In this document: in pieces, positions 12,676 through 16,030 of the stretch
Layout: each line of letters begins with the position of its first letter
Numbering within the stretch: position 1 is the first letter of the stretch
Assembly: GCF_002554795.1 (NCBI RefSeq)
Contig: NZ_PDEQ01000004.1
Coordinates: 62,001 to 126,000, forward strand
DNA from: Longibacter salinarum
GTDB taxonomy: Bacteria; Bacteroidota; Rhodothermia; Rhodothermales; Salinibacteraceae
Length of the DNA stretch: 64,000 nucleotides
Direction of reading: 5' to 3'
The notes under the pieces: model-generated
The model's database searches: none
Told to the model about the DNA's origin: nothing
The model's input: the letters and a program-made list of their open reading frames with translations, nothing else
Translations under genes and position numbers: made by a program

Positions 12676-13575
12676 ATGCAGCTTCCCTCCTATCTCAGCC
12701 CCGACGACCTGACCAATTTGATCCGACGCGCCATCCAGGAAGATGTCGGCCCCGGAGATGTCACGACGGAAGCTACGGTAAACTCTGACCAAACCGGCTC
12801 GGCATCCATTCGCGCCAAAGCCCCCGGCGTGATTGCCGGACTCGCGGTGGCAGAACGTGTCTTCGCCCACGTAGACCCGGCCATCCTGTGTCGCTGGCAG
12901 GTCGCCGATGGCACAGTCGTGGAACCGGGCGTGGAGATCGGTACGATCGAAGGGCCGGCCCGCGGTCTGCTCATCGCTGAGCGCCTCGCGCTGAACGTAC
13001 TGCAGCGGATGAGCGGCATCGCGACCGCGACCCGACGGATGGTCGAAGCAGCATCTCCTCATACACCCGACATCCTAGACACGCGAAAGACGGTGCCCGG
13101 ACTGCGGGGGCTGGACAAATGGGCCGTCAAACTCGGCGGAGGCACGAACCACCGCGTCGGCCTCTACGACCTGATCCTGATCAAGGACAATCACATTGCC
13201 GCAGCCGGCGGAATTCACGAGGCGCTAGATGCTGCAAAAGTGTACTGCGAAGCTAACGAACGAGAAGACCTCGACATCGAGATTGAAACGCGAACGCTCG
13301 AAGAGGTCAGCGCCGTCGTCGAGCATGGAGGAGCCAATATCATTCTCCTCGACAACATGGCTCAGGCACGCTCCGATGGCTCAGTCGATGTGGCGATGCT
13401 TGAAGAAGCCATCGCGATCGTGGACGGGACCTGCCGTACGGAAGCCTCCGGTAACGTGACTCGAGATACGGTGAACGCAATCGCGGCAACGGGTGTCGAC
13501 GCCATTTCGTCTGGTGCGCTGACGCATTCCGTGACGGTACTGGACCTCTCGATGCAGATGACGGTCCGCTCGTAG
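12676..13575 (+). CDS. nadC: nicotinate-nucleotide pyrophosphorylase (quinolinate phosphoribosyltransferase)
   Basis: Converts quinolinate and PRPP to nicotinate mononucleotide in de novo NAD synthesis. The 299 residues match the family. Characteristic segments are the N-terminal EDVGPGDVTTEA, the ERLALNVLQRMSGIAT helix, DTRKTVPGLRGLDKWAVKLG with the substrate-binding arginine and lysine, GGGTNHRVGLYDLILIKDNH, the metal-binding IEIETRTLEE and the final SSGALTHSVTVLDLSM. It is about 110 bases past the thioesterase gene. nadA and nadB are not in the window. It faces the Cse2-like gene convergently. Confidence 0.97.
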   Translation: MQLPSYLSPDDLTNLIRRAIQEDVGPGDVTTEATVNSDQTGSASIRAKAPGVIAGLAVAERVFAHVDPAILCRWQVADGTVVEPGVEIGTIEGPARGLLIAERLALNVLQRMSGIATATRRMVEAASPHTPDILDTRKTVPGLRGLDKWAVKLGGGTNHRVGLYDLILIKDNHIAAAGGIHEALDAAKVYCEANEREDLDIEIETRTLEEVSAVVEHGGANIILLDNMAQARSDGSVDVAMLEEAIAIVDGTCRTEASGNVTRDTVNAIAATGVDAISSGALTHSVTVLDLSMQMTVRS

Positions 13576-13628: not shown

Positions 13629-14216
13629 TCAGGACGACCCGCGACGAAGAGCATAGATGGTCCGAAAGTAGTCGTTCGCAATTCGGAGCCGAATCTGGCG
13701 GGCGTGTCCGCCGGATTTGAAGAGGAGACGTCGAACATCATCCCAGTTCACGACCTGTTCAGCGTCAGCAAAATCGCTGGACGCCCACTCAACGAAAGTA
13801 AGAATCGCCTCATCGTTCGCTTCCATCATGAGCGTAAAGCGATCTTCCGCCCAGCCAACCATAGCGAGTGCCTCTCCGAGCGAGATCGTGGGATTGTGCA
13901 TCCCCGCACATAGCGCCATGCCTTTCAGAAGCACGGCCCATCGCTGATCCCACTGCTCTCGCGACAACCAGGCGGGAGACTTCGTCAGGTTCAATGGCCC
14001 GAGCACGATGCTAAGCACATCATCATCGGGGCGATCTAGCGAAAGACGCTGGAGCACATCCACCTCTTCCGGACTCAGGCGATCGTCCTCCGGGCGAAGC
14101 ATAGACGCAATCGTGGCAACGGCATTGTCGAGTCTCTGCGTTTGATCCGTGCCATCCGTCGATGGGGGAGACGAGTCCTCGGCCAGCGAGAAGCGATGCA
14201 TAGGACGTGAATACAT
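13629..14216 (-). CDS. orphan Cse2/CasB-like protein (tentative)
   Basis: A 195-residue predicted helical, cytoplasmic protein. The C-terminal two thirds follow the pattern I know from Cse2/CasB, the small subunit of type I-E CRISPR Cascade: a helix pair ending RWAVLLKGMALCAG, then SLGEALAMVGWAEDRF (112-127), a hydrophobic MEANDEAILTFVEW helix, VNWDDVRRLL (156-165) and RIANDYFRTIYAL (178-189). Family members typically have S-G-x-A-L...S-E-x-R-F, V-x-W...L and R-x-x-W/I-A-x-x-Y/F. No other cas gene and no array is visible around it; neighbours are nadC and ispG. A second ATG at 14201 is possible. The assignment is by pattern only and could be wrong. Confidence 0.5.
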   Translation of the reverse strand: MYSRPMHRFSLAEDSSPPSTDGTDQTQRLDNAVATIASMLRPEDDRLSPEEVDVLQRLSLDRPDDDVLSIVLGPLNLTKSPAWLSREQWDQRWAVLLKGMALCAGMHNPTISLGEALAMVGWAEDRFTLMMEANDEAILTFVEWASSDFADAEQVVNWDDVRRLLFKSGGHARQIRLRIANDYFRTIYALRRGSS

Positions 14217-14413: not shown

Positions 14414-14540
14414 TAACGTGGGGGCCTTACCTCACCTTTATAGACGACACCTCAGCCGCACAGCCGACATCCAAAAGAAAAAAGTTGCTGGGGATCACAG
14501 AACCGTTAGATTTAGTCCCCATGAGCGCTTTCGGCAATGA

Positions 14541-14572
14541 AAAACGGTCGCCTCCATTTTGGAGACGACCGT
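14541..14572 (-). terminator. intrinsic terminator of ispG
   Basis: On the minus strand ACGGTCGTCTCC and GGAGGCGACCGT form a 12-position stem with one mismatch and an AAAAT loop, followed by TTTT. It lies about 75 bases past the ispG stop. Confidence 0.85.
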
Positions 14573-14646
14573 CGCATTGATTTCCTGTCTGTCGGCTGAA
14601 CACCTGCGCCACCGAAGCCGGTGTCCACTCACGAGCCGCGCGGGCC

Positions 14647-15816
14647 TTACGAGGTCGGCAGATTGGGCTTCCTGACGTTACTCCCCGCCTCGCCATCTCC
14701 CGAGGACTCCGTGACACCGTCTGTCACCGTCGCGTCGTCGTTTTCCTCGTCCTCGTCCCACTCTTCGATCGCTTTGATCACCGCCTCGACAATTTCGTCT
14801 TCGTCGACGGTGCCCACGATTTCACCGCGCTTGAAGAGGTGTGCACGACCGCGACCAAGAGAGACGCCAAGATCAGCCCCCGAGGCTTCCCCCGGTCCGT
14901 TGACGGCGCAGCCCATCAGCGCCACGTTCAGGTCCTTGTCGAAGTTCTGCGCCGCTACTGCTTCCTCGACTTCCTCGACGATGGTGAACAGGTCTCCGAC
15001 GAGACGACCGCAGGTCGGGCAAGCGATGATGTTGACCCCAGGACGGCCGATGCCGAGCGACTTCAGGATGCGGTGACCCACCTTTACCTCCTCCACCGGA
15101 TCCGTCGCCAGGCTCACTCTGATCGTGTCGCCAATCCCGTCCGCGAGAAGCGTACCGATTCCCACCGAGCTTTTGACCGTACCCGTCGCAAGCGAACCAC
15201 TTTCCGTGACGCCGAGATGCAGCGGATAGTCCGTCCGCTCGGCGACCATGCGGTAGGCTTGGATCATGTAGAACACATCGCTGTGCTTCACCGAGATGAC
15301 GATGTCCTCGAAGCCGTTCTTCTGGCAGATCTCGACATGGCGCATCGCGCTCTCGAACAGCGCCTCCGGCTTCGGATAGCCGTACTTGTCCATCAGGTCT
15401 TTCTCCAGCGACCCGGAGTTCACGCCAATCCGAATCGGAATGCCCTTCTCCTTCGCGGCCAGAAGGACCTCCCGCTCCCATTCCGGCTTGCCAATGTTAC
15501 CCGGGTTGATGCGCACCTTCGCGATGCCGGCCTCAATGGCCTTGAGCGCGTACTGGTGGTTGAAGTGGATGTCGGCCACGATCGGGACGCGGCTACCCTG
15601 GACGATATCCTTCAGGGCGTCGGCATCCTCCGGCCGGGGCACGGCGACACGAACGACGTCCGCACCGGCATCTGCCAGTCGGTGAATCTCCTCCAGGCAG
15701 GTCTCCACCTCGTGGGTTTTCGAAACGGTCATGCTCTGCACGGAGATCGGGGCGTTACCACCAATCTGTACATCGCCGACCTGAACGGGGCGGGACTCGC
15801 GACGGGGGCGTTCCAT
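14647..15816 (-). CDS. ispG: 4-hydroxy-3-methylbut-2-enyl diphosphate synthase
   Basis: The [4Fe-4S] enzyme of the MEP isoprenoid pathway that converts MEcPP to HMBPP. The 389 residues match the short single-domain bacterial form rather than the longer form with an inserted domain found in some Bacteroidota and plants. Conserved stretches include QSMTVSKTHEVE, ADIHFNHQYALKA and VRINPGNIG; cluster cysteines are in IIACPTCGRL and LMGCAVNGPGEA with a glutamate downstream. A non-conserved acidic tail (DEDEENDD) follows. The longest frame starts with TTG; the ATG giving MERPRRESRPV fits the family better. A clear terminator follows. Confidence 0.96.
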   Translation of the reverse strand: MERPRRESRPVQVGDVQIGGNAPISVQSMTVSKTHEVETCLEEIHRLADAGADVVRVAVPRPEDADALKDIVQGSRVPIVADIHFNHQYALKAIEAGIAKVRINPGNIGKPEWEREVLLAAKEKGIPIRIGVNSGSLEKDLMDKYGYPKPEALFESAMRHVEICQKNGFEDIVISVKHSDVFYMIQAYRMVAERTDYPLHLGVTESGSLATGTVKSSVGIGTLLADGIGDTIRVSLATDPVEEVKVGHRILKSLGIGRPGVNIIACPTCGRLVGDLFTIVEEVEEAVAAQNFDKDLNVALMGCAVNGPGEASGADLGVSLGRGRAHLFKRGEIVGTVDEDEIVEAVIKAIEEWDEDEENDDATVTDGVTESSGDGEAGSNVRKPNLPTS

Positions 15817-16030
15817 GGTACAAACGGTCAATCGATGAGGGCGAAGGGAGCGCTCGGGGCGTTCATCGTCTGCTGTACGGCTCCTCTACAGAAAGGCTCC
15901 CGAGCAGGTATAGTGATTTGGTAAAGGAAGACAGGAAAGGACGACACCGTGACACGCAGACGGGTGTTTGGTGTGGACCGCAACCTGAAGGATCGCAATG
16001 CACGTACGCCGGAATCGATTCACCTGGTCG

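Follow-up and report, generated by a model that had tools for sequence, protein, structure and literature searches.

A stand-alone Cse2/Cas11e paralogue, possibly repurposed outside CRISPR, is retained between ispG and nadC in two species of one genus

Within the window, the whole 64-kb stretch of Longibacter salinarum DNA analysed here, a gene resembling the small subunit of type I-E Cascade was found between two housekeeping genes (Table 1), and an intact ortholog occupied the same place in a second species of the genus (genome G001). Together, our analyses strongly indicate that this orphan is a stand-alone Cse2 paralogue, separated from a type I-E operon prior to the divergence of the two species and since then vertically inherited and neofunctionalised. 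The reading that we favour, at roughly even odds, is that of a domesticated, vertically inherited Cse2 that was released from CRISPR and took on a CRISPR-independent nucleic-acid function within a single genus.

Table 1. Features of the orphan cse2 gene, its neighbourhood and the operon-borne copy of the host (window positions unless a locus is named)
Feature	Position	Strand	Basis or remark
Stand-alone Cse2/Cas11e-like gene, 195 aa, ATG start	13629..14216	(-)	ORF, profile matches, G001 ortholog
SLGEALAMVGWAEDRF, aa 112-127, LGxAL...WxExRF core common to operon-borne Cse2; includes R126	13836..13883	(-)	alignments
R126, equivalent of E. coli CasB R101	13839..13841	(-)	alignments; role per PMC5965380
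E143-W144, replacing Arg-Arg (E. coli R118-R119)	13785..13790	(-)	alignments
C-terminal segment, aa 155-192	13641..13754	(-)	identity and charge comparison
ispG (GcpE), upstream neighbour, same strand as orphan; context only	14647..15831	(-)	Pfam GcpE
nadC (quinolinate phosphoribosyltransferase), convergent with orphan; context only	12676..13575	(+)	Pfam QRPTase
Terminator-like hairpin, after ispG and before orphan	14543..14573	(-)	count in region not above shuffles
Short element GGTGTCGTCTAT-N-AAGGCC, 5' of orphan, candidate promoter/operator	14423..14451	(-)	common to G001
Host's own I-E Cse2	L004:8279-8887 (contig C10)		complete cas locus

Judged on its profile matches, the ORF is a real, diverged Cse2/Cas11e homologue. 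It scored above the curated cut-offs of both Pfam CRISPR_Cse2 (25.1 bits, E 2.7e-5; cut-off 24.6) and NCBIfam casB_cse2 (36 bits, E 6.9e-9; cut-off 28.5) and matched the PADLOC Cas11e profile with 81 bits (E 1.7e-23), whilst the G001 ortholog reached 27.1 bits against Pfam CRISPR_Cse2; all credible profile matches of the orphan were to Cse2/Cas11e families. The initial annotation, made from the letters alone, had offered the link to Cse2 as an inference from the order of three motifs and had called for a Cse2-profile search. The motifs do follow one another as described, with SLGEALAMVGWAEDRF succeeded by VNWDDVRRLL (aa 156-165) and RIANDYFRTIY (aa 178-188), and the family link now stands well above chance, both in the profile searches, which returned no other credible family, and in a profile-profile comparison of the two orphans with five operon-borne Cse2s (hhalign probability 100, E 6.8e-45). 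AlphaFold2 run on the orphan sequence alone, without an alignment, gave an all-helical model of low confidence (pLDDT 42.6), which does not confirm the Cse2 fold. A search of the PDB with the single orphan sequence returned chance matches only, and one with a profile reached Cse2 structures weakly (3wa8, E 0.001; 4tvx, E 0.03). A Clostridia locus (L028) considered as a relative was rejected, its match being to an unrelated protein and due to chance.

Pfam assignments bore out the earlier identification of the flanking genes as ispG and nadC, with the orphan 430 bp downstream of the former. The hairpin that separates it from ispG suggests that the orphan probably has a promoter of its own, and a 12-nt identical stretch accompanied by AAGGCC was recovered upstream of both orphans (L029 1624-1648 in G001), this element being present as a single copy in each genome. 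In line with the initial report, no further I-E cas gene and no repeat-spacer array was found in the 64 kb. Searches of the window by tblastn with the proteins of the host's I-E locus recovered the orphan alone; the host CRISPR repeat had no match in the window at up to three mismatches, no 20-mers recurred there at a spacing of 45-100 nt, and host CRISPR spacers produced matches of chance length only.

Elsewhere in the host genome (4.4 Mb, 22 contigs, 99.8% complete), the genome-wide cas search proposed in the initial annotation uncovered a full type I-E locus on another contig, C10, comprising cas3-cas8e-cse2-cas7e-cas5e-cas6e-cas1-cas2 and a CRISPR array that has a period of 61 nt and reaches the contig end. 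Cas1, Cas5, Cas6e and Cas7e were detected on this contig only, and Cas8e was searched by protein, the Pfam Cse1 profile being uninformative in that it fails to recover the Cas8e of the host itself. Within the distal portion of the array (L004 15106-15728), blocks of ~232 nt occurred in 2-3 copies, representing either duplicated spacer runs or an effect of assembly where the contig ends. Phylogenetic analysis united the two orphans in one clade (support 100/100) on a long stem of 1.3-1.5 changes per column, and grouped the host's own I-E Cse2, 33-35% identical to the orphan, with the I-E Cse2s of other genera. A sister relationship between the orphans and the host's own I-E Cse2 was rejected (p-AU 0.011), and on this phylogeny the orphan is not a recent copy of it. 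No particular operon-borne group was singled out by the tree as the closest to the orphan clade.

We surveyed 245 genomes from the class, together with 394 sampled from the phylum. With two exceptions, the window gene and its counterpart in G001 (the sole further representative of the genus in the set), all clear Cse2 matches adjoined other cas genes of type I-E. These two exceptions are the only orthologs known. The G001 gene lies in the order rhomboid-ispG-cse2-nadC-thioesterase-accA-MATE, so that the nadC-side placement, which the initial annotation had singled out for comparison in relatives, is kept in the second species. Across most other genera of the family, the rhomboid gene adjoins ispG and neither nadC nor Cse2 lies within ~1.5 kb; given these differing neighbours, the junction and the orphan appear to be genus-specific in the genomes compared. 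Neither the window nor the G001 contig carried cas8e, cas7e, cas5e or cas6e beside the orphan. Searches of the G001 draft (83% complete, 390 contigs) for cas1, cas5, cas6e, cas7e and the host cas8e detected none of them. Cas genes normally cluster at one locus, and a single assembly gap would hide the whole set, so this absence is suggestive at most. Retention of the orphan at this position in a draft genome where no cas genes were found suggests that it has taken on a separate job.

The survey also yielded two loci, from two genera of the same family, with tandem I-E interference modules (L031, G022:C48, 1330-19164; L034, G004:C1, 1-15987), in which cas3-cas8e-cse2-cas7-cas5 occurs twice, followed at the end by a single cas6e and cas1-cas2; the second module encodes a divergent Cse2. 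In a further locus (L041 12168-17657, G024), two cas3-like genes lie 5' of one I-E operon, the second matching in two pieces.

Comparison of the two species over 185 codons showed purifying selection on the orphan. Its product was about 56-57% identical between the window and G001, against 94% for ispG and 79% for nadC, and changes per codon position amounted to 0.30/0.22/0.63, with no stop codon. The NG86 estimate of dN/dS was ~0.12, a rough value since dS is saturated, and dN was higher in the orphan (0.33) than in ispG (0.04) or nadC (0.14), indicating faster evolution than in its neighbours. This rate, together with the isolation of the gene from other cas genes, might be expected of a gene left behind by a vanished I-E locus, decaying but still open by chance, a remnant being one of the options raised in the initial annotation. 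We consider such decay improbable, as 63% of third positions differ and 57% amino acid identity nevertheless persists, the reading frame being free of stops and frameshifts in both species, a pattern unexpected under neutrality. The low dN/dS, the 82% conservation of the C-terminal segment and the upstream element common to both species argue in the same direction, and an intact gene with an ortholog under purifying selection in a second species does not favour a remnant.

Residues were mapped onto the E. coli K-12 CasB reference, in which residue 142 is Lys, by three alignment methods that all agreed. In E. coli CasB, R27 and R101 anchor Cse2 on Cas7 and contact the target strand, whilst R53, R110, R142 and R143 act as guides for the non-target strand (review PMC5965380). 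Both orphans (as R126) and all operon-borne Cse2s compared retain the R101 equivalent, and the region around R126 was conserved to the same degree as in operon-borne Cse2. At the R27 position, the window protein has Arg and the G001 ortholog Gly. Loss of R53, R110 and R143 from the orphans is uninformative, since the operon-borne Cse2s of these relatives lack them too. Several residues invariant across 21 operon-borne Cse2s were altered in both orphans, including R118, which is Arg in E. coli and in 26/26 operon-borne Cse2s aligned and Glu in both orphans; the adjacent R119, nearly invariant in the operon-borne Cse2s compared, is Trp in both. At the position of K142, the orphans carry R/K, where nearly all operon-borne relatives have an acidic residue. 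The C-terminal segment was 82% identical between the orphans, compared with a mean of 51% for operon-borne pairs of similar overall identity, and its net charge was +5/+6 in the orphans versus -2 to +2 in 21 operon-borne relatives.

The kept docking residue and the intact I-E locus of the host leave a Cascade-linked role viable, and the main rival explanation is accordingly a trans-acting Cascade modifier, a possibility that we regard as somewhat unlikely. Under this explanation, the orphan would dock on the host I-E Cas7 backbone via R126, where it would replace or compete with the operon Cse2 and alter either the locking of the R-loop or the recruitment of Cas3, acting as a subunit for tuning or self-restraint. 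Beyond the complete locus on contig C10 and the retention of R126 within conserved surroundings in both orphans, such a variant subunit might be tolerated, as interference in E. coli requires Cse2 only partly (PMC12235044). Against it, the G001 ortholog no longer has the other docking residue (E. coli R27), the orphan and the cas operon are on separate contigs, and the orphan and the Cse2 of the host's I-E locus are not sisters and so have no vertical history in common. The earlier suggestion that the gene acts in trans with a distant locus thus finds a full I-E locus in the host and none in G001, whose 83% complete draft retains the orphan and yielded no I-E gene.

The same docking residue makes conceivable a dominant-negative subunit homologue, that is, an anti-CRISPR-like decoy of mobile-element origin that would poison Cascade assembly. 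We judge this very improbable, given the housekeeping genes on both sides of the orphan and the lack of mobile relatives: none was found in phages or among IMG/VR viral contigs, PHROG families gave no match, and the sole plasmid match was the casB of a Salinibacter ruber plasmid operon, 40.9% identical to the orphan.

Of the options put forward in the initial annotation, repurposing as a nucleic-acid-binding protein fits best with the conserved placement, the lost invariant residues and the conserved basic C-terminus. In this scenario of a repurposed Cse2, the exit of the gene from a type I-E operon would predate the divergence of the two species in this genus; the gene would then have taken its place between ispG and nadC and been inherited vertically. 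Its product would be a small helical nucleic-acid-binding protein that acts without the rest of Cascade, having kept the ancestral Cse2 core and lost the operon-type Arg-Arg pair, with binding shifted to the basic C-terminal segment (K167, R/K173, R176, R178, R185, R191 and R192). That the orphan binds nucleic acid through this segment and works without Cascade is a proposal that we hold to be evenly poised, binding being deduced from charge.

If correct, this would represent a Cascade subunit maintained by selection outside a cas operon, implying that the small subunit is able to work by itself or as a modifier in trans, and a host with both the orphan and a normal I-E locus makes a direct test possible. 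A search of the open-access literature found no stand-alone Cse2/Cas11e, which is weak evidence of absence, and nothing was retrieved from the literature on CRISPR-Cas in relatives of Salinibacter. Documented exaptation concerns whole CRISPR systems and Cas4.

The orphan resembles the Cse2/CasB/Cas11e of type I-E Cascade in its sequence family, in its LGxAL...WxExRF core, NWxDV...LL and RL..A..Y motifs and in its Cas7-docking Arg at the position of E. coli R101. It differs from Cascade Cse2 in lying outside a cas operon, in the Glu-Trp that stands in place of Arg-Arg, in the many invariant positions changed and in its basic, highly conserved C-terminal segment. With the host's own I-E Cse2 it shares family, similar length and scores above the Cse2 family cut-offs, but its low identity and separate branch of the tree set it apart from that copy, which sits in a complete locus with an array. 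A precedent found for exaptation of a single Cas protein is a Cas4-derived nucleocapsid protein of a virus (PMC4625639), a lone Cas protein outside CRISPR loci with another function. The orphan would be like it in these respects, and unlike the exaptation precedents found, which involve Cas4 or whole derived CRISPR systems, in that the protein concerned is Cse2.
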